A stretch of DNA of 26,180 bases from a virus, in the IMG/VR virus record IMGVR_UViG_3300049259_000037, positions 1-26,180 of that record, one strand, 5' to 3'. Of the stretch, positions 353 through 18,222 are shown piece by piece. How positions within the stretch are numbered: the first letter of the stretch is position 1; the number at the start of each line of letters is the position of its first letter. The translations under genes were made by a program, and so were the position numbers. The notes below the pieces were generated by a model. That model did not search any database and was not told the origin of the DNA. It saw nothing but the letters and a program-made list of their open reading frames with translations.

Positions 353-1426
353 TTAGACCGCGCCGGACAGGCGAAGGCCGAACAGCTGCGTCGACACCAC
401 GTTGCGCGTCGCGCTGGTGTTCTGGAAAACGCGCAAATCGATGACATCGCCGGACAGCACCTTGATCGGCGTCGTCACCACGATGCCGTAGGTATCGCTC
501 GGATTGATATACGTGGTCATGAAGGCGCCGGTGCCGCCGTTGGTGGCGATCGAGGCGCGATAGTCGTTGCCGCCCGCTGACGCCGTGAGCAATTCGAGCG
601 CGGCATAGCCGGCGAACAGCCAGGCACCGGCGTCCTTTGCGCCGCAAGTGAAAGCGGCCGATGCGAAGCCACTGCCCGAATTGAAGTAGCTGGCGCCGAC
701 ACTGCCGATATTCGTCACCTTGGTATCGGCGCCCGACGGAATGCCTTGCGGCGAGCTGCCGGTTGCAAAGAAGAACGGCGTCCGGCGCTGGAACAGGGTC
801 AGCGGCGAAATGAACGGGCTGGCCAGCGCCCCCGCTTCGGCCTCGGCCTTGGTCGCCTCGCGGTCGACCGAAACCTTGCGAAAATTGGTGCCGTCGAAGG
901 CGACGCTGAAAAAGCCGCTCGCCGCCAGTTCGCCGGCCTCGAGCGCGGCGCCGTCCAGGCGCAGGATGGTGACGGCCCCGAGGCCGTTGACATTGATCGT
1001 CGGCGTGGTGGTTGTGTTCGCGTTGGCGGATTTCTTGACCCGGATCGGCGCGGTACCGACCTTGTATTCGGCGAGCGGCGGCGACAGCGTCACCACCATG
1101 GCGTCGGCGGTACCGGTGTCGGCCGCGTAATTGACCATCCCGCGCTGGATCATGTGCTGCAGGGCCTTCAGCACCATGCTGTCGTCACTGTTCAACGGGG
1201 TGACGATATCGGCGGCCGCCGCGGTCTGACCGTTGCCGCGGATCAGGTTGCGGAATTGACCGATCAGCGCGTTGACGAAGCCGGCCTGGACCTTGGTGCC
1301 GTCGTTGGCACTGGGCGAGGAACAGTCCTGCACCCAGGTGTCCGCAGCACCGAACGTGCGGGTGTCGGCGGGACGCACGGTGACGGCGTTCGGAGCGTTT
1401 GCCGGTCCGACAATATCAAGGGCCAT
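353..1426 (-). CDS. Tail fibre protein with C-terminal jelly-roll-like domain
   Basis: A 357-aa protein following the gp48 baseplate gene, the position of the fibre gene in Mu-like tails. The N-terminal third (about residues 45-100) contains a helical segment likely to join the baseplate. Residues 110-190 are Thr/Ala/Gly/Val-rich and beta-like, with short modules common in fibre shafts. Residues 203-213 (a Pro-Leu-Thr-Leu collar-like segment) lead into a beta-rich C-terminal domain of about 140 residues, rich in Gly, Ser, Thr and Phe. This domain resembles a C1q/TNF-type jelly roll and would be the receptor-binding tip. AAGGA precedes the ATG. The fibre role is well supported by position and composition; the fold of the tip is inferred. 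Confidence 0.75.
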   Translation of the reverse strand: MALDIVGPANAPNAVTVRPADTRTFGAADTWVQDCSSPSANDGTKVQAGFVNALIGQFRNLIRGNGQTAAAADIVTPLNSDDSMVLKALQHMIQRGMVNYAADTGTADAMVVTLSPPLAEYKVGTAPIRVKKSANANTTTTPTINVNGLGAVTILRLDGAALEAGELAASGFFSVAFDGTNFRKVSVDREATKAEAEAGALASPFISPLTLFQRRTPFFFATGSSPQGIPSGADTKVTNIGSVGASYFNSGSGFASAAFTCGAKDAGAWLFAGYAALELLTASAGGNDYRASIATNGGTGAFMTTYINPSDTYGIVVTTPIKVLSGDVIDLRVFQNTSATRNVVSTQLFGLRLSGAV

Positions 1427-10106: not shown

Positions 10107-11615
10107 TTAGGCGGGATACTGCAGGAAGGTCGTCGCGTTGGCGGCGAACACGCGGAACTGGTTGATGACGTCGACCGGCAGATAGGCATTGACCCGATTC
10201 GGATCGCTCGACCGCTCGACCACCAGCGATCGGGCGAACAGGTCGGAGTTCTCGACCAGGCCGCCGTTCTCCAACTCAGTGTAGACATGAATACACTCGG
10301 CCTTGAGGATCTTGGCCGTGACGATCCCGGGGTTGCCTTGCGGGTTGTCATCGGCCAGCGCGTGCCGGCCGTACTTCTGGGTGATGCGCTGGCGTAAATA
10401 GCGCACGAAGTAGACCATCTGCAGGCGGGTTTCGACGTCGAGCCAGGTGATGTCCGGCTGCGAATACGAATTGGTCTGGTAGGTGGTGACGACGCGGTCG
10501 AGCATCACGGTGCCGTCGATCTGGACCTTGAAGCCGGCGATGCCGTCCTGGTAGAGCGTGTTGCGCTGGGTGATGTTCCACCAGTCGACCCGGCTCTGCG
10601 GCGGACGGATGCCGACCAGGTCGAGCGTCTGCACCGGGCGGCTGATCCGGTAGGCCTGGTCGACCTCGCCGCCGAGATTCTTGTCGGACGCGATCCGCGC
10701 GCCGTAGGCCGCCACCCAGCGCCACGGCGAGGACGGCGAGTTCGCCACGCCCATGTTCGACACGTTCGGATCATTGCGGCCGACGCCGAAGGCGGCGACG
10801 TTCGAATAGGTGTCGAACATCGCGGTGAAATAGTGGCCATAGATCTGCTGGATCGGCGACCAGCGGCCGGACGTGCCGCCCAGGAAATCCTTGATAACGT
10901 CGAGCGACGTGGTGTCCGCATAGGGCGCGCAGATGAAATCGAACTCCTGGTCGCCGAGGGCGGCGATCGCCGAGCCGAGCAGCGGCGTGCCGGTGCCCGC
11001 GGTGCCCGCGGCGATCGTCAGATAGGTCTGCAGCGCGCCCTCATCGCCGACCAGGTCCTTCAGGATCGACTGCTTGGCGGCCAGCGCGCCGACATTGCGC
11101 GCCGTCAGCGTGACGACGTTGGTGGAAACGGAAGCGAGCACCGGGAAGGACAGGTTGCGGCCGAACTTGTAGTAGCCGAGGTTGATCGCCGCCGACAGGT
11201 TCGCCGCGACGTTGGCATTGGTGTCGGTCGAGGACACCGAAATGGCGACCTTCTCGCCCCCGACGTACAGCACAAGCTGTCCCGTGCTGCCGGCAATGCC
11301 CGACGCCACGGTGACGGTGTGGGTCTGCGCCGCGCCCGCAGGGTCCGCGATCGGCAGCATCCAGATTTCGCCGAACGGATGGTTCTGCCGGGCCCAGATC
11401 GCCATCTCTGACAGCATCGAGCCGGGACCGGCCAGCGCCTGCGGGTCGCCGCTCAGGATGATCGGCACGTTGGCCGGCGCGGAGCCGGCCGACGTCTTCT
11501 GGCCGATCAGCAGCGTCCGGCTTGGTCCCTGGAAGGGCGACTGCCCCGCGTTCACTTCCGCATAGAACAGCGGAACGCGAAGATTCGACGGAATATTGTT
11601 GAACAAAACGGGCAT
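10107..11615 (-). CDS. Contractile tail sheath protein (Mu gpL / gp39 family)
   Basis: A 502-aa protein. The N-terminus (Phe-Tyr-Ala-Glu-Val-Asn-Ala-Gly near residues 17-24, then Leu-Leu-Ile-Gly-Gln) matches Mu-type sheath proteins. So does the C-terminal domain, with Val-Val-Thr-Thr-Tyr-Gln-Thr-Asn, Leu-Asp-Val-Glu-Thr-Arg-Leu-Gln and Tyr-Phe-Val-Arg-Tyr-Leu-Arg. It assembles around the tube and contracts on injection, so the tail is of the contractile (myovirus) type. An AGGAG site lies upstream of the ATG. It is followed by the tube gene after an 89-base gap. Confidence 0.96.
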   Translation of the reverse strand: MPVLFNNIPSNLRVPLFYAEVNAGQSPFQGPSRTLLIGQKTSAGSAPANVPIILSGDPQALAGPGSMLSEMAIWARQNHPFGEIWMLPIADPAGAAQTHTVTVASGIAGSTGQLVLYVGGEKVAISVSSTDTNANVAANLSAAINLGYYKFGRNLSFPVLASVSTNVVTLTARNVGALAAKQSILKDLVGDEGALQTYLTIAAGTAGTGTPLLGSAIAALGDQEFDFICAPYADTTSLDVIKDFLGGTSGRWSPIQQIYGHYFTAMFDTYSNVAAFGVGRNDPNVSNMGVANSPSSPWRWVAAYGARIASDKNLGGEVDQAYRISRPVQTLDLVGIRPPQSRVDWWNITQRNTLYQDGIAGFKVQIDGTVMLDRVVTTYQTNSYSQPDITWLDVETRLQMVYFVRYLRQRITQKYGRHALADDNPQGNPGIVTAKILKAECIHVYTELENGGLVENSDLFARSLVVERSSDPNRVNAYLPVDVINQFRVFAANATTFLQYPA

Positions 11616-11660
11616 TGCGTTGCGCTCCTAAGTGAGATGGCAAAAACGAATGGGGGTGGA

Positions 11661-11891
11661 TCAGCCGTGCTTTGGCGCCGCCAGCTTGTCCTTGTGCGCG
11701 TCGGGGTGCGCGGCGGGCTTCGGCGCATTCGGATCATCCGTGATGACCAGATCGCCGGCGATGATCAGCCGCTCATAGAAATCGATCCGCGGAACAGTGT
11801 GGCCCTCGGCCGGCATCACCTTGCTGTCGCGGTCGGGCATCCGGATGCGGCCGCCTTCGAACGCGGGCTTCACATAAACGAATTCGGTCAT
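11661..11891 (-). CDS. DUF2635 small protein (Mu gp38-like)
   Basis: A 76-aa protein starting with ATG at 11891, taken as the start because a longer upstream extension in this frame would overlap the preceding gene. It opens with Val-Tyr-Val-Lys-Pro-Ala and has Met-Pro-Asp-Arg near residue 18, Pro-Ala-Glu-Gly near 27 and a Tyr-Glu-Arg-Leu-Ile segment near 39. It ends in a Asp-Leu-Val-Ile strand and an Ala/Pro/Lys-rich tail. These are the hallmarks of DUF2635, always found just before the sheath gene in Mu-like tails. Its function is not established. Confidence 0.88.
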   Translation of the reverse strand: MTEFVYVKPAFEGGRIRMPDRDSKVMPAEGHTVPRIDFYERLIIAGDLVITDDPNAPKPAAHPDAHKDKLAAPKHG

Positions 11892-11910
11892 CGGTTTGAT
11901 CCTTCGGGTT

Positions 11911-12693
11911 TCAGGGTTGCTGCAGGTCGATCGGCGCTTCGATGTGGTTGAACGTGTTGTCTTGCTCGCCGATGCCTTCCGCGTTGACCACGTCGAGATC
12001 GAGCCCGGTGAGAACCGTGGCCGACAACGGCGTGAGCGCCGCGACCAGCGCGTCGCACAGCTTCTTCTCATTGCCGTCCGGAAGTGCCTTGGCGACCTTG
12101 CTGAGAGGCCAGGGCAGGATGTCGTAGCCGGTCGGTTGCATCTGGTTCGGCCGATAGACGTTCACCTGATCGTCGGAGACCTCGACCTGCCACGTCAGCA
12201 CGCGCGCGGCGATCTTGACGCCGGTCTCATCGAGCACCTGGCGGTGGCAGTCGTGCTTCCACACCCGGGTGAAGCTGCGAAACAGCGCGCAGATCGGATC
12301 GAGATCGTAGGCCAGCCGCCGCGTGATCTGGAATTCGAGCAAGTCGAGCGACATCTCGTGCTCGGCGTCGGTCGACGGATAGCCAGGAACGAACTCCGAG
12401 CCGCCGCCTTCGAGCGCGATATCGAAGCCCTGCACCATCGCGAATTCCATCACGAGGTTGATGTGACGGTGGAACGGCGGGCCGCCGTTCTGTTCGGAGA
12501 GGCCGTCGCCCTCATCATCATCGGTCAGGATGATGACCGTCGGCTTCGCATCGTCGGGGTACGTCTCCGGCGAAAAGTCGCTCACCCGGCTGTCGTAGAC
12601 CCGGTTGGCCGCGATCGTCGGGCCCGTCGAGGGCGTCGCGCCTTTCAGCGCGGCGAGCGCGGCAAAGCGCAAGGCGGTCCGAGCGAGGGTCAT
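11911..12693 (-). CDS. Tail terminator-like / minor tail protein
   Basis: A 260-aa protein that opens the tail block, upstream of DUF2635 (where Mu has gp37). The N-terminus has an Ala-rich helix followed by Arg-Val-Tyr-Asp-Ser-Arg (residues 31-36). Next come Pro-Thr-Val-Ile-Ile-Leu-Thr-Asp-Asp-Asp-Glu and a strand with Asn-Leu-Val-Met-Glu-Phe. This order of helix, Tyr-Asp-Ser-Arg and acidic loop is typical of tail terminator proteins that cap the tube and contact the neck. Residues 120-170 hold an extra region with His-Asp-Cys-His. I am confident in a tail-completion role and less so in the exact family. Confidence 0.65.
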   Translation of the reverse strand: MTLARTALRFAALAALKGATPSTGPTIAANRVYDSRVSDFSPETYPDDAKPTVIILTDDDEGDGLSEQNGGPPFHRHINLVMEFAMVQGFDIALEGGGSEFVPGYPSTDAEHEMSLDLLEFQITRRLAYDLDPICALFRSFTRVWKHDCHRQVLDETGVKIAARVLTWQVEVSDDQVNVYRPNQMQPTGYDILPWPLSKVAKALPDGNEKKLCDALVAALTPLSATVLTGLDLDVVNAEGIGEQDNTFNHIEAPIDLQQP

Positions 12694-12822
12694 TTTGTGC
12701 GAAATCCAGTGGGTTTCGATGGCTTTGGGCTTTTTGGACCCGTTTTAGACCCTTGGAATGGATTTCAGGGTCGGTTAGCGTCGCTGCGCGTCGATGGCTT
12801 GATATCCGGAGGCGCTTCAAAG

Positions 12823-12933
12823 GCAGCGAAGGTTAAACGGCTTATGCCGGGTGGCTCCAAAAATAGGGCTTAGTAGCAGCGTCCGGTCGCTCCGGGCGTG
12901 GGCCTAATATTGGGGGTCAGCAACCTTCGCTGC
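12823..12933. repeat. 12-bp inverted repeat, arm pair A (GCAGCGAAGGTT)
   Basis: Left arm GCAGCGAAGGTT lies at 12823-12834 and its exact reverse complement at 12922-12933, with arm starts 99 bp apart. It interleaves with arm pair B, so the order is A, B, A', B'. A degenerate third copy with one inserted base occurs at 12962-12972. Confidence 0.8.
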
Positions 12934-12953
12934 TGAATATCAACCACCCGGCA
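12845..12953. repeat. 10-bp inverted repeat, arm pair B (TGCCGGGTGG)
   Basis: TGCCGGGTGG lies at 12845-12854 and its exact reverse complement CCACCCGGCA at 12944-12953. The arms are again 99 bp apart. The gap between A and B and the gap between A' and B' are both ten bases. Confidence 0.8.
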
Positions 12954-12983
12954 CCAGCCGGGCAGCGCGAAGAGGCTGTCCAG

Positions 12984-13154
12984 ATGTTTAACCTCTTGAT
13001 AGGGGGCGGGCTGCTTGTGGCCCTGACTAGCTTCATTTTTTGGGTTGGCATCGAAGGGCACAAAGAGCGCGTTCGCCGCCGCTTCTTGCCGAAAGAAGAG
13101 CAGGACCGCCTCGAAGCCGAAGATGCTGCGTGGGCGCAAAACTACAGCTTTTGA
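12984..13154 (+). CDS. Small single-pass membrane protein, 56 aa
   Basis: The ATG at 12984 opens a 56-codon frame closed by TGA at 13152-13154. AGAGG lies nine bases upstream. Residues 3-22 are a hydrophobic membrane segment (Leu-Leu-Ile-Gly-Gly-Gly, later Phe-Ile-Phe-Trp-Val-Gly). A strongly basic stretch follows (His-Lys-Glu-Arg-Val-Arg-Arg-Arg, residues 26-33) and then an acidic tail (Glu-Glu-Gln-Asp-Arg-Leu-Glu). The charge pattern suggests the N-terminus outside and the C-terminus in the cytoplasm. It is on the plus strand, co-oriented with the PEP-CTERM gene 86 bases downstream and against all virion genes. I do not recognise a family. The clean topology argues for a real gene; a holin is conceivable but unsupported. 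Confidence 0.55.
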   Translation: MFNLLIGGGLLVALTSFIFWVGIEGHKERVRRRFLPKEEQDRLEAEDAAWAQNYSF

Positions 13155-13162
13155 AGAGTCAA

Positions 13163-13199
13163 GCCGGTTCTTTTTGCCAGGTCAATTGACTCAACCGGC
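13163..13199 (+). promoter_or_regulatory. Palindrome and candidate promoter/operator before the PEP-CTERM gene
   Basis: GTCAATTGAC at 13181-13190 is a perfect 10-bp palindrome. It is flanked by GCCGGTT (13163-13169) and its reverse complement AACCGGC (13193-13199). TTGACT at 13186-13191 matches a -35 box, but the segment 17-18 bases downstream is only a weak -10. This may be an operator-overlapped promoter for the gene at 13241; it is a guess from layout. Confidence 0.3.
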
Positions 13200-13240
13200 G
13201 CGGGAAAGGTGAATGTACCCATTTCACCGGGGGTATTTCC

Positions 13241-13783
13241 ATGCGCTTCGTGCTCGCCTTCCTGCTGTGTCTTGGCAGCTTCACGGCCAAAGCCGCCACC
13301 TACTATATTGACCTCAACACGGTAACTCCGGACGGCATCTTTCCCGGTTCGTGTTATTGCGGCAACGGCCTAATTTTTCCGTTCATGCCTTTCGCACCCG
13401 GCGATGTCGTTGACTTCGGCAGCGTGACAATCCCCGCCCAGCAGGTTGGTCACATATTCTCAGGTCCGCCAGTGTATTTACAAGCTGGAGCGGGCGCCGT
13501 TTACGAACCGGGCAGTTTCCCGGGTTGGTATTGGCCTTATACAACCGCTGGCAGCTCCGCAACATTCGACCTAATTTACACTATCCCGGTAGGCAAAAGC
13601 GGCATCCGCGTTGGTTGGAATGGCCCAGGATTTTATACACCACCACCCGAGCTCGCCACGGCCGTTCCGGAAACGACTACGTGGGCGATGATGATCTTCG
13701 GGTTCGCCGGTATCGCCTTGCTAGCATTTCGGCGAAAAACATTAAGTGCGTCATTTCAACGCCAATCCTTCGCAGCGTCGTAA
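13241..13783 (+). CDS. Secreted PEP-CTERM-type protein, prophage cargo
   Basis: A 180-aa protein on the strand opposite to the virion genes. Residues 1-18 form a Sec signal peptide (basic start, hydrophobic core, Ala-Lys-Ala cleavage box). The mature region is rich in Gly, Pro, Tyr, Phe and Trp, with a Cys-Tyr-Cys pair at 38-40. Residues 142-148 read Val-Pro-Glu-Thr-Thr-Thr-Trp, followed by a hydrophobic helix (149-163) and Arg-Arg-Lys (164-166). This is the tripartite PEP-CTERM sorting signal that exosortase cleaves in host envelope systems. The usual second Pro is Thr, and a 14-residue tail follows the basic cluster, longer than normal. GGGGG lies about nine bases before the ATG. The 3' end overlaps the convergent glycosidase gene by 28 bases. 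The function of the mature part is unknown. Confidence 0.8.
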   Translation: MRFVLAFLLCLGSFTAKAATYYIDLNTVTPDGIFPGSCYCGNGLIFPFMPFAPGDVVDFGSVTIPAQQVGHIFSGPPVYLQAGAGAVYEPGSFPGWYWPYTTAGSSATFDLIYTIPVGKSGIRVGWNGPGFYTPPPELATAVPETTTWAMMIFGFAGIALLAFRRKTLSASFQRQSFAAS

Positions 13784-16104
13784 ATTCGATATTTTTCAGA
13801 AAATATGCCGCCCTTCATCGCCGACCATGCACTGTCGCCTTGGATCAAGAACCAACACGGCCTTTTCGAGTGCGTTCTAGCGACCGATTGCGTGAGGTAA
13901 TCGAAAGCTAGGCTGTATCCAACGTCGCTCAATTTGTGGTCTTCGACCAAGTTGTCGAGCCCCGGCGACGCCCAAGCCGTAATGGTGCCGGTGCCTGCAG
14001 TCGTTGGAGTTATTGCTATCGGATCGTGATAGGTCGCCGAAATATCAAATGCGTTCGTCGACGGGTTCATCACAAAATAATCCCTGCCGTGCTTTTGGCC
14101 ATCCAGGGGATTGTCGTCATTCCTGATTTCCGGCGGCAGTGCTCCGGTTGATGCAAATGAAACTCGGTCACCCGCCTGCAATGTGTTGCCTGTCCAATTA
14201 ACCGCTTGCGCTCCCGGCCCGCTCGTTGTGCTGAACGTCACGGTGTGATCAACGCTGATGCCAAGCGTGATGTGCACGCACCACGTTTCCGGCGCCGTCT
14301 GTTGGTTGGCTCCTTCATATGGCTGAAATGTCACCGGGGTCGTTCGACCGTCGATCGCCCAATCAGCTGTGATCGCCTCGTAAAGATCGTAGAGGCCCCC
14401 CGGATCGGAATACGCCTTGAGTGTATTGCCGCCGAGAGCACCGACGCCACCAACCAATCCTTGCCGGATGTCGTTGTCCAGCCAGCTAATTGCCGCGGTT
14501 CGACTGGCCCCGCCGGCCGCATAATTATTTCGCGCTGTCAAAAGCACGCCAGCGCTCGCAGCAACAAAATTCTGCCCAAGATATTGCATGTTGGCGCCGG
14601 CGTAATACGGAGCGTCTGAAAGAACGTCGCTGTGATCTCTCGGCCGGTTCGGATAGGTGTCGTGATCGACTCCACCGGTGTACGCCCCATAGAGCGGATA
14701 AGCCGCGCTATTTAGATCGAAGCCATTGAAGCGATACACCCTTGCCTGATCCACAAAATCAGGAATGGCAAACGAGGCCATAACGCGCTGTACGGAGGAT
14801 CTCGGCCTTCCACTTGACAGACACGAAGCTATGACCAGAGGGCTGATCTCGCAGACCCGAAGCCCGTACATGTTGTGATACGGCTCGTTGTTGCTGTTCG
14901 GAAAGCCGAGAGCGAGCCCGCGGGCATAGAGCAGATGGGTCGGGAAAAATCCAAAATTCCAAATCTCATTGCTGTACTCGAAAAATCCTGCCAACCACTG
15001 CAAAAGTCCGCCGGTAGGATGGAAGATCAAGTCCGCCAACGCCCTCACGGCCGCGTTGTTGAACAACGGAGGGATGCATACCCACAAATCGGCATCCAGC
15101 TCATTCGCCATCTGGATCATCACCTCAACCGGAATATTGAAGGAGATGCCGCCGTAGAAAAGCAGGAACTTACCCAGAATGGCGTCGTAGGTAAGCGTCA
15201 CTAGCGTCCCAGCGGGCAGGCTTCCGCCAAAGATAGCACCGCCGGTTCGATCAGCGATGCGGATAGGGCCAAGACCACCTCTATTCATGGTGGTATTTCC
15301 ATCCGCATTGGTCGACGTCACCCGGTATTGTATTTGCTCACCGTCTTCATATGCCAGCGGGTTGCTGCCGGAGGGATTGTTGCAGACATAAGCGATATTG
15401 TCGGACGTGGTGACGGAGCTACTCCAGAGATCGACCGGATAAGCCTCATTGAACCAGCTCAGGTCGGTCGGAAGCGTCCGATGCTCCCATTTAACGTGAT
15501 TGGAGCCTTGGCCGAAGACATTATTCCAACCCATGGTTCTCGCGGAGACAGGATTGATGTCCCGATATCTCGCTAGCCATTCTGGGGTGTAGAAGTAACC
15601 CGCATCTATCCGAGCCTCATCACTGACGCGGCAAATCACGAGACCGCCGGTGCCAGCTGCATTTGCGAACCCAGTTGGGAAATAAAATCCTAATTCGGCA
15701 TTTGTGTAATTAACAAATCGAAAGAACACTTCGCCCGGGCCGGTGAAGTGGATTTCAGCGGTTGACGATGTTCCTCCGGAATATGTAACTGCACCCGAAG
15801 TTCCGGAAATCGTAATGTTCGTCCCGAAGACGAACCCAAGATGCCGCGTGCCGGTGTTTTTTATCTTCCAATCAACAGCGTTTCCGCAATATCCCTTGTC
15901 AAGGACAATCGATCCGCCGATGACTCCGCCTAGAGTGTTGATCGGGTATTTCGACGCGTCTACGTCGCGAGGAGACGAACCTGCGAAAAATTGCTGGCTT
16001 TGGTACTGCTTCGCAATGTTCATGAACGCGCCATCGTACTGCACGTTCGTTTGAATGGAGCCAGAGGCGCCGCGCACCTGAGAGCTCAAGAGAAGCCACC
16101 CCAT
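13756..16104 (-). CDS. Virion-associated clan GH-A glycosidase-like protein with fibre modules
   Basis: I chose the ATG at 16104 (782 aa): it overlaps the previous stop as TGATG and has GGAGGG seven bases upstream; two GTG codons precede it. Residues 1-160 are beta-rich. A TIM-barrel-like region then begins (Tyr-Thr-Pro-Glu-Trp-Leu near 172, Trp-Glu-His-Arg-Thr-Leu-Pro near 206). Residues about 243-318 look like a phage-fibre beta module. The barrel resumes at Asn-Ile-Pro-Val-Glu-Val and has Glu-Tyr-Ser-Asn-Glu-Ile-Trp-Asn at 376-383, the clan GH-A Asn-Glu acid/base motif (Glu380). Tyr-Glu-Gly at 596-598 fits the nucleophile (Glu597). Residues about 602-714 resemble the FCCH-like beta module common in tail fibres, and the last 65 residues look like the barrel end. 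The likely role is degradation of host surface polysaccharide; the substrate is unknown. Confidence 0.7.
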   Translation of the reverse strand: MGWLLLSSQVRGASGSIQTNVQYDGAFMNIAKQYQSQQFFAGSSPRDVDASKYPINTLGGVIGGSIVLDKGYCGNAVDWKIKNTGTRHLGFVFGTNITISGTSGAVTYSGGTSSTAEIHFTGPGEVFFRFVNYTNAELGFYFPTGFANAAGTGGLVICRVSDEARIDAGYFYTPEWLARYRDINPVSARTMGWNNVFGQGSNHVKWEHRTLPTDLSWFNEAYPVDLWSSSVTTSDNIAYVCNNPSGSNPLAYEDGEQIQYRVTSTNADGNTTMNRGGLGPIRIADRTGGAIFGGSLPAGTLVTLTYDAILGKFLLFYGGISFNIPVEVMIQMANELDADLWVCIPPLFNNAAVRALADLIFHPTGGLLQWLAGFFEYSNEIWNFGFFPTHLLYARGLALGFPNSNNEPYHNMYGLRVCEISPLVIASCLSSGRPRSSVQRVMASFAIPDFVDQARVYRFNGFDLNSAAYPLYGAYTGGVDHDTYPNRPRDHSDVLSDAPYYAGANMQYLGQNFVAASAGVLLTARNNYAAGGASRTAAISWLDNDIRQGLVGGVGALGGNTLKAYSDPGGLYDLYEAITADWAIDGRTTPVTFQPYEGANQQTAPETWCVHITLGISVDHTVTFSTTSGPGAQAVNWTGNTLQAGDRVSFASTGALPPEIRNDDNPLDGQKHGRDYFVMNPSTNAFDISATYHDPIAITPTTAGTGTITAWASPGLDNLVEDHKLSDVGYSLAFDYLTQSVARTHSKRPCWFLIQGDSAWSAMKGGIFSEKYRIYDAAKDWR

Positions 16105-16703
16105 CACCACCCTCCAAAATTAGCAGTGAGCTGATTGCCGAGGATGTACATCGAGACCATCGGAAAATACGGGCCAGCCGCGACGCTGGCGGCCGCAATA
16201 TCAAACCCGCCAACGCCGGTAGCTGTGTTGGCTGACGGGTTGTTGTTCCAATCCCCGGAATTGGTCTTGAAGAAAAGCAAGCTCGACGATGCCTTGAGAT
16301 AGGCAGTCACGGTGTCGCCGTTGGCATACCCTCCAACTGTCGCCCCCGACGATCCCCCGCCGGTCCAGATTTGACCATTACTAAGAAGCCCGACGCTGTT
16401 ATGATCGAACCCAACGTAATTATTTACATCAGCAGTGGCGTTGCCGATACCTACAAGATTTAGAGTGTCGTCATTCTGATTAATGACGACAGAAAATGAA
16501 TGATCGCCCGAGGACACCGAGGTGGTTGCCTTGACCGAACCAAACGTTATGCCGCCGTCATTGTAAGTCGCAATCAGTTTTGTTCCATCCAAATTTATCC
16601 GCGACGTCTTGTTAGCTGGATCCCAGGTTACCGTCGTACCGATCACCACGATCGGCCTCGCAGTCCTCGACAGCGTCCGCCTCCGATGCAAAAGGTTTGG
16701 CAT
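16104..16703 (-). CDS. SPRY/B30.2-like virion protein
   Basis: Two in-frame starts exist. I take ATG at 16703 because it follows the previous stop (16717) and has AAAGGGGTGG upstream, giving 199 aa; the longer form would start inside the preceding gene. After a basic N-terminal stretch (His-Arg-Arg-Arg-Thr), the rest is beta-rich. It shows a SPRY-like succession of strands: Ser-Gly-Asp-His-Ser-Phe-Ser-Val, Val-Gly-Ile-Gly-Asn-Ala, Ser-Val-Gly-Leu-Leu-Ser-Asn-Gly, Tyr-Ala-Asn-Gly-Asp-Thr-Val and a Phe-Phe-Lys-Thr-Asn-Ser-Gly strand. It ends Phe-Pro-Met-Val-Ser-Met-Tyr and Ala-Asn-Phe-Gly. The fold suggests protein or glycan binding at the virion surface. The stop overlaps the glycosidase start. 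The SPRY call is by eye. Confidence 0.6.
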   Translation of the reverse strand: MPNLLHRRRTLSRTARPIVVIGTTVTWDPANKTSRINLDGTKLIATYNDGGITFGSVKATTSVSSGDHSFSVVINQNDDTLNLVGIGNATADVNNYVGFDHNSVGLLSNGQIWTGGGSSGATVGGYANGDTVTAYLKASSSLLFFKTNSGDWNNNPSANTATGVGGFDIAAASVAAGPYFPMVSMYILGNQLTANFGGW

Positions 16704-16716
16704 TTCGACCACCCCT

Positions 16717-17574
16717 TTAATCGAGAGACAATCCAAGCCGCGCAATCAAGCCCGCGGCTGTATAGGTCGGCGTTCCGCTGGCACACACTGCTGCGATGTA
16801 CGCGTTGCGGCTTCCTGAGACAGCCTTGAGCGTCTGGCCAATCCCGCGAAGCGAAGCTACGCTCACACCGCCCAAATCTTTATAGTCCGCTGCAGCAATC
16901 GAGAACGGGCCGTAAAGGCTAACCGCACTGGCGTCGCTAATGCTGACCGCGCTACCCTCCGTCCCCATCGATACGTTTGCATCCAGAATATAAACGTCGA
17001 TCGCCTGTTTTAGATCATCTTTGTCGATGATCTGGATCGAGTTGAGCCAGGCGGTGCCATCTGAAATGCGAAACAGGTTCGTGAGGACCTGCGTATCAGC
17101 GATGAGCGTACCGACCGCCTGTGCACCGGTGCTCGCCGAAAGCGTCACGTCGAACACCAATGATTTGCCGACACTAGCGACCGGCACCATGTTCGCAGCG
17201 CCTTGCATACCAACCAAGCCACCAGCATCGGTGCCGGGCGCCGTAGTCCCCACCGTAGCCGCGGCTAGATCAGTGTGCAGCGTGTCGAGCTTTGCATTGC
17301 TTGACCCGACGAGAGTCTCGAGCCCGTCTACGTAACCGTTAAGCGTCGTGATCAGGCTTTCCAGCGTGTCGGTATAGCCTGCAATGGTGGTGAGCGAGCC
17401 GTTCGTCGTTCCCAATAGCCCTTCGAGCCCGTCGACGAATGTCTTCAAGCTCTCCAGCCGGGCCTGCATGGTGTTGGCCGCGGGGCTCGCACCCTGCCCG
17501 ACGATCGCGATCAGGTCATCGATCGTCGAAATGACGGTATCGACGCCTGCAGAGTTTTTGACCGAAATGGGCAT
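16717..17574 (-). CDS. Virion structural protein with N-terminal coiled coil and internal repeat
   Basis: A 285-aa protein I cannot name. Residues 35-105 are helical with Leu at heptad-like spacing and contain two copies of a Val-Asp-Gly-Leu-Glu-x-Leu unit about 39 residues apart, suggesting a trimeric stalk. The C-terminal part (from about residue 130) is a beta-rich domain. It has Val-Gly-Lys-Ser-Leu-Val-Phe-Asp-Val, a Tyr-Gly-Pro-Phe segment and a final Ala-Gly-Leu-Ile-Ala-Arg-Leu-Gly-Leu. Similar two-part proteins occur in head-proximal regions of other phages, where head fibre or collar roles are suspected. Its start follows the stop of the 57-aa gene by one base. Codon use is less GC-rich than in the head genes. 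Confidence 0.6.
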   Translation of the reverse strand: MPISVKNSAGVDTVISTIDDLIAIVGQGASPAANTMQARLESLKTFVDGLEGLLGTTNGSLTTIAGYTDTLESLITTLNGYVDGLETLVGSSNAKLDTLHTDLAAATVGTTAPGTDAGGLVGMQGAANMVPVASVGKSLVFDVTLSASTGAQAVGTLIADTQVLTNLFRISDGTAWLNSIQIIDKDDLKQAIDVYILDANVSMGTEGSAVSISDASAVSLYGPFSIAAADYKDLGGVSVASLRGIGQTLKAVSGSRNAYIAAVCASGTPTYTAAGLIARLGLSLD

Positions 17575-17575
17575 A

Positions 17576-17749
17576 TCAGATTGCTCCTAACAGGCCGCTG
17601 TTCGCGGGCACGTTGAATGAAAGTGAACCGGCCATTGTCGGCGTCGACGGTTGCTGCAGCTTCTCGACCAGGGCAGTGAGCTGGTCGACCTTCAGCGCAA
17701 GCGCCGCGATCTGCGCGGCGACGGATGCGATCGTGGGTGTTGCAATCAT
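17576..17749 (-). CDS. 57-aa coiled-coil protein
   Basis: The ATG at 17749 overlaps the stop of the FII-like gene as TGATG, and the stop at 17576-17578 lies just before the next ATG (17574). This tight spacing and full use of the gap support a real gene. Residues 9-32 form an Ala/Leu-rich amphipathic helix (Ile-Ala-Ala-Leu-Ala-Leu-Lys-Val-Asp-Gln-Leu). A short Pro/Thr linker follows, and then a Phe-Asn-Val-Pro-Ala-Asn-Ser-Gly C-terminus. No family is recognised. It may be a neck or head accessory subunit. Confidence 0.6.
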   Translation of the reverse strand: MIATPTIASVAAQIAALALKVDQLTALVEKLQQPSTPTMAGSLSFNVPANSGLLGAI

Positions 17750-18222
17750 CACACCAGCGGAACGTATTGGCTGTTCGAAGCGATATCGAAGCGCAACGAG
17801 GGCAGTCCGGCATCGACGACAGGCCAGCGCTTCTTGGCGGTCAACTGCAGCAGCAAGCGGCCCATGCCGTCTGGATAGGTGCGCGCGATCTCGTAAAACT
17901 GCCCGTCGAATTGGCGCGTGACCTTGTCGCCGGGACGCGGCGACCACGCCAGCAACGCGTCGTTGACGCTGACGGACGGATACGAAGCCGTCCAGTTGTG
18001 TGCAACGTCGTCGGCAGAGCCGCCGCGCGCGTGCACTGCACCGGATTTGGAAGTCCCTTCCCATATCGCGATCGCGTCGAATGCGACCCGCGACGCGTCG
18101 GGTGTCTTCCGCCCGCTGACATCATCACCGGGCTTGAAAGCCTCGAACGTGAACAGCTCGCCGAAAGCACGGTCGATCGCGCCCGAAACCCGATTATCCC
18201 GGGCTGAGAACGGATTGGCCAT
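17749..18222 (-). CDS. Head-tail connector protein, lambda FII-like
   Basis: A 157-aa protein directly after the major capsid gene. Residues 1-25 are a short helix with Ala-Ile-Asp-Arg-Ala-Phe. The middle is beta-rich, with Pro-Arg-Pro-Gly-Asp-Lys-Val near residue 95 and Tyr-Glu-Ile-Ala-Arg-Thr-Tyr-Pro-Asp-Gly-Met-Gly near 110. This matches the beta-barrel pattern of FII/stopper proteins that seal the portal and receive the tail. It is about 40 residues longer than lambda FII because of a central Ala/Gly/Thr insertion and a C-terminal Asn-Ser-Gln-Tyr-Val-Pro-Leu-Val. The family call rests on position and pattern. Confidence 0.65.
   Translation of the reverse strand: MANPFSARDNRVSGAIDRAFGELFTFEAFKPGDDVSGRKTPDASRVAFDAIAIWEGTSKSGAVHARGGSADDVAHNWTASYPSVSVNDALLAWSPRPGDKVTRQFDGQFYEIARTYPDGMGRLLLQLTAKKRWPVVDAGLPSLRFDIASNSQYVPLV

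Follow-up and report, generated by a model that had tools for sequence, protein, structure and literature searches.

Glycosidases of the families GH51, GH79 and GH39 belong to clan GH-A. The phage protein analysed here resembles them in its predicted TIM barrel, with an Asn-Glu pair after strand 4, a Glu after strand 7, an Arg on strand 2 and a Tyr near strand 6, but differs in sharing about 10% identity with them, in lacking a Pfam match and in a barrel that carries up to three beta domains. A functional phage enzyme of clan GH-A is known, a soil viral GH5 endomannanase (PMC6786970). TIM barrels are rare among phage depolymerases, accounting for 10 of 984 fold hits (about 1%) in one survey of deposited phages (PMC11326577).

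Polysaccharide-degrading phage enzymes include the endosialidases of K1F and phi92, whose catalytic part is a beta-propeller (PMC12632334), whereas a TIM barrel is predicted here. Likeness to them would lie in the activity predicted for our protein and in a beta-barrel module of similar predicted fold, which in K1F is a polysialic-acid binding site (PMC12632334). PslG-type glycosidases are encoded beside exopolysaccharide genes (PMC9075953), as are rhizobial homologues of our protein, but belong to another family; the protein studied here is phage-borne and contains inserted modules. It is well documented that phage proteins shuffle domains and that otherwise unrelated ones have modules in common (PMC10684548); in the present family, by comparison, insertion affects several loops of one catalytic barrel fold.

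The window, i.e. the whole stretch of 26,180 bases that was analysed, is the viral record of a contractile-tailed phage with its virion genes on the minus strand, in the order terminase, portal, protease, decoration, major capsid, glycosidase region, sheath, baseplate and fibre gene (Table 1). No RNA families were found within the window.

Table 1 Features of the glycosidase gene and its surroundings in the window
Feature	Position	Strand	Remarks
Predicted GH-A-type glycosidase gene	13756..16104	-	782 aa, ATG start
Ribosome-binding site GGAGG	16111..16115	-	6 bases before glycosidase ATG; read from sequence
Family-wide beta domain, residues about 50-160	15625..15957	-	between barrel strands 1 and 2
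Arg189, invariant	15538..15540	-	at strand 2
Insert 1, residues 226-318	15151..15429	-	beta2-alpha2 loop; homologous to module of same phage's tail fibre
EYSNEIWN (376-383) with Asn379-Glu380, proposed acid/base	14956..14979	-	after strand 4 (373-377)
Tyr500, invariant	14605..14607	-	just past strand 6
Tyr596-Glu597-Gly598, proposed nucleophile	14311..14319	-	after strand 7
Insert 2, residues 621-710	13975..14244	-	beta7-alpha7 loop; mobile phage module, putative beta-barrel
Tail-fibre gene of the phage	353-1426		
Low-GC cargo cassette	12694..17748	.	about 5 kb (5.05), between two connector-region genes
Connector-region genes flanking the cassette	17749-18222 and 11911-12693		homologues abut in relatives L296-L299 and L301
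SPRY/concanavalin-like lectin candidate	16104..16745	-	213 aa, directly upstream of glycosidase, in cassette
Coiled-coil plus beta protein	16717..17574	-	285 aa, in cassette, no family match
Secreted PEP-CTERM-type protein	13241..13783	+	180 aa, overlaps 3' end of glycosidase gene

Family membership and distribution

Scans of the 782-aa glycosidase against Pfam, NCBIfam and PHROG gave no match, and no named GH family exceeded its curated cut-off. Plasmid searches yielded weak but consistent matches in alphaproteobacteria and one cyanobacterium over residues 314-503. Profiles built from these matches recovered 69 viral loci, a set confirmed by a separate profile. In bacterial genomes they gave over 500 matches, and the 80 best of these were retained. 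Viral contigs yielded relatives to the profile but none to a single-sequence search, and tblastn of P0001, L016, L033 and L028 against 50,697 deposited phage genomes gave no convincing barrel match. The closest relatives are phage proteins (L014-L018) with 28-31% identity, one of which, L016, was located in the genome of Bradyrhizobium sp. Tv2a-2 (L136). The glycosidase family is found in many uncultured phages and in bacteria and has no Pfam, PHROG or NCBIfam entry; we regard this unclassified family, common to both, as new.

Uncharacterised bacterial proteins with SNEVWN and YEGG motifs (L002-L010, L137-L215) share the homologous barrel and the family-wide beta domain. They differ from the phage protein in being cellular, many with signal peptides, and are annotated as hypothetical or calcium-binding. 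The kinship to cellulose-binding-type bacterial proteins that had been read from the sequence is supported by the matches to cell homologues and by structural matches.

Predicted structure and active site

The open reading frame, its coordinates and both motifs of the sequence-only reading, EYSNEIWN with Glu380 and PYEG with Glu597, 217 residues apart, were found as claimed. Structure prediction and a search against GH-A families, the check proposed along with that reading, agree with a clan GH-A-type glycosidase. The AlphaFold2 model, built with 32 family members, is a (beta/alpha)8 TIM barrel with a pTM of 0.78 and pLDDT values above 85 for most barrel elements. Its eight strands comprise residues 18-21, 187-190, 339-344, 373-377, 438-443, 494-496, about 592-597 and 750-753, the assignment of strand 7 being short. 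The barrel had been expected to start at a WxxRTLP segment, which instead falls within the beta2-alpha2 loop, strand 1 being located at residues 18-21.

Among the structural matches listed, GH51 arabinofuranosidases are the best (Z 23.6, rmsd 3.4, 311 aligned residues), followed by GH79 and GH39 enzymes (Z 18-21.5). A Foldseek search with the whole model yielded weak matches, the best with an E value of 0.012, while the structural aligner gave Z values above 20. Comparison of the model with BFVD gave no useful match, and a sequence search of solved structures with the glycosidase returned nothing credible.

Asn379-Glu380 is located at the end of beta4, the position of the acid/base in clan GH-A, and Glu597 at strand 7, the position of the nucleophile, is present in 81 of the 81 relatives that can be read at this site. 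In the 82-row family alignment, Glu597, Tyr596, Tyr500 and Arg189 are invariant wherever readable, while identity among aligned members is only about 16-30%. Most loci were fetched with the pattern E[YF]SNE[VI]W, so that the conservation of Glu380 is partly built in; Glu597, Tyr596, Tyr500 and Arg189 played no part in fetching. By analogy with clan GH-A, Glu380 would act as acid/base and Glu597 as nucleophile in a two-step retaining mechanism.

Modules inserted into the barrel

Two beta modules had been proposed to interrupt the barrel, at about residues 243-318 and 602-714. Both are present; their limits are better set at about 217-321 for the first (module 226-318) and about 610-713 for the second (module 621-710). 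A third, family-wide beta domain accompanies them.

The beta2-alpha2 loop measures 12-37 residues in 67 of 82 members and 103-304 residues in the remaining 15. These are the clade of the window phage, two proteins from Bradyrhizobium chromosomes and another, separate group of phages. Domain insertion into the catalytic barrel, at first taken to be unusual, is recurrent in this subfamily. Insert 1 of four members was made into a profile; among 23,356 open frames, this matched the phage's own tail-fibre gene (E 1.2e-5) and, in the L136 prophage region, a gene of fibre type (E 5e-8). Insert 1 is homologous to a tail-fibre domain. Among the bacterial SNEVWN/YEGG proteins this loop has 15-37 residues, except in Bradyrhizobium L137 and L138 (204-205).

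In the two Bradyrhizobium chromosomal proteins the insert occupies this same loop and itself contains an E1_FCCH-like segment, which suggests that phages and host polysaccharide clusters have exchanged genes.

The loop after strand 7 comprises 123 residues in the window protein and at most 54 in all other complete members, and the site of insert 2 is unique among the 82 members. Insert 2 scored 23.3 bits against a profile of 67 module copies, compared to 9.4 bits for the best of 534 controls. The module occurs inside many different phage structural proteins, in line with the fibre-type character assigned to both inserts from the sequence. In L016 one copy lies between strands 5 and 6, and a second, weak match falls between strands 6 and 7. 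A catalytic barrel that repeatedly took in phage beta modules at several loops is, in our view, a further new feature of the family.

No curated Pfam match to E1_FCCH or End_beta_barrel was obtained for insert 2; in the same test the related nested segment of L137 scored 28.6, with a cut-off of 29.5. The fold matches of insert 2 include the beta-barrels of the phi92 and K1F endosialidases and ubiquitin E1 FCCH (Z 6.8-7.4), although its model is poor (pLDDT 58) and a Z of about 7 may reflect just a common arrangement. By analogy with K1F, insert 2 might hold sugar. A very recent arrival of insert 2 is not supported, since GC3 is the same in the insert (0.59) as in the remainder of the glycosidase gene. 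The loci L216-L295 place this module within dozens of otherwise different phage structural proteins, without a Pfam match.

In a TIM barrel, the beta2-alpha2 and beta7-alpha7 loops belong to the catalytic face. Modules inserted there would thus rim the cleft, together with the family-wide beta domain, and could hold or orient the polymer.

Genomic context

In five relatives with capsid proteins 71-89% identical to that of the window phage (L296-L299, L301), the homologues of the two flanking connector-region genes are directly adjacent and follow the capsid gene at a distance of about 0.45 kb. The cassette between them in the window phage has GC3 values of 0.55-0.68, compared to 0.80-0.89 for most tail genes. 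This empty site in five relatives and the deviant composition identify the segment as moron-like cargo. Promoter-like sites in the cassette are at chance level. The location of the glycosidase at the head/tail junction, pointed out in the sequence-only reading, is correct; the cause of this odd place is that the cassette split two connector genes. The glycosidase came with its neighbours as part of this cargo.

The glycosidase ATG overlaps the stop codon of the upstream gene by one base (ATGA-type overlap), and the enzyme is translationally coupled to the lectin-like gene on the late-gene strand. The protein encoded at its 3' end on the opposite strand features an N-terminal signal and a C-terminal VPETTTWAMMIFGFAGIALLAFRRK tail, which is PEPxxWA-CTERM-like. 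It matched NF035944 with an E value of 6e-7, below the cut-off of that model, and deposited phages contained no match to its gene.

Virion-gene regions likewise harbour family members in unrelated phages: the member in L085 follows a gene for a virion structural protein, that in L083 is flanked by a fibre gene and a head-tail adaptor, and that in L087 is close to a capsid gene. A conserved three-gene set common with L087 was considered and rejected, its two neighbours having no convincing similarity to those in the window.

A different cargo of about 3 kb is present in the close relative L299 (about 11100-13800), one gene further, between connector gene and sheath. The head/tail junction may therefore be a cargo hotspot.

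Association with exopolysaccharide genes

The distance between the cell homologue and genes of Poly_export (capsule/exopolysaccharide export) was determined in 39 genomes; a 40th with many copies was left out. In Hyphomicrobiales, 6 of 6 homologues lie within 20 kb of such a gene, where uniform placement would predict 0.19 (P about 6e-10, a value that overstates independence because the six genomes are few and partly related). No excess was seen in the other 33 genomes, mostly Rhodobacterales, with 2 observed within 30 kb and 1.4 expected. The Bradyrhizobium homologue L138 adjoins rmlA/B/C for dTDP-rhamnose synthesis, a GT61 glycosyltransferase, a flippase and an acyltransferase, while a Shinella homologue was found beside an O-antigen ligase and export genes. 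This proximity of rhizobial homologues to polysaccharide export and synthesis genes bears out the exopolysaccharide link of the sequence-only reading and points to host exopolysaccharide as our best guess for the substrate.

Proposed function

We consider it likely that the protein is a phage glycosidase with GH-A fold and catalytic pair, directed against the exopolysaccharide of an alphaproteobacterial host and carrying fibre-type modules in two loops. The enzyme is probably a tool for passing the slime layer of an exopolysaccharide-making bacterium, which would be degraded from the virion or after lysis. No signal peptide was recognisable by eye, which, together with the coupling on the late strand, suggests that the protein most likely rides the virion or is freed at lysis.

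A possible alternative, which we rate below this reading, is an enzyme outside the virion that is freed at lysis or secreted by a lysogen and loosens exopolysaccharide, so that progeny disperse or the lysogen surface changes. The low-GC cassette beside an opposite-strand PEP-CTERM-type gene indeed resembles cargo for lysogenic conversion, and the relatives L015 and L016 begin with signal-peptide-like sequences, which point to secretion over virion assembly in those phages. However, the glycosidase gene is co-directional and coupled with late-strand genes, its product has no such signal by eye, insert 1 is common to the enzyme and the tail fibre, and the neighbours of the relatives in other phages are head, connector or fibre genes. 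We find it unlikely that the protein serves as an auxiliary metabolic enzyme that nourishes the host by digesting polysaccharide from plants or the environment. Active GH-A enzymes of phages such as the endomannanase exist (PMC6786970), and arabinofuranosidases are among the nearest folds, but delivery from a living host would lack a signal peptide, a tail-fibre module is inserted in the barrel and the nearest cell homologues occupy polysaccharide-synthesis regions.

The crowding of the active-site face by large inserts and the lectin-like gene upstream would also fit a catalytically dead barrel that acts as an adhesin for carbohydrates, to which the inserts add further lectin surfaces. This is very improbable given the invariance of Glu597, Tyr500 and Arg189 in 81 readable members at such low identity.

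Returning to an active glycosidase, we tentatively suggest, with less than even confidence, a new depolymerase class. Its unclassified GH-A-type core would dock interchangeable phage beta modules on catalytic-face loops, which retune the grip on the substrate while the core remains unchanged, and would travel, together with a lectin and a surface protein of PEP-CTERM type, as one exopolysaccharide-directed cassette. The family represents a natural set with one catalytic core and different modules at different loops. It makes phage tuning of polysaccharide specificity by loop insertion testable and supplies candidate enzymes against alphaproteobacterial exopolysaccharide.

In two loci (L083, 6284-9989; L136, 7920-12646), fibre-like or neighbouring phage genes as well as the glycosidase relatives begin with sequences resembling signal peptides, an odd trait in virion proteins. 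The genome of Cocleimonas flava (G027, the source of L183) contains 16 stretches matching the glycosidase family in 4.5 Mb, compared to one or two in other genomes.
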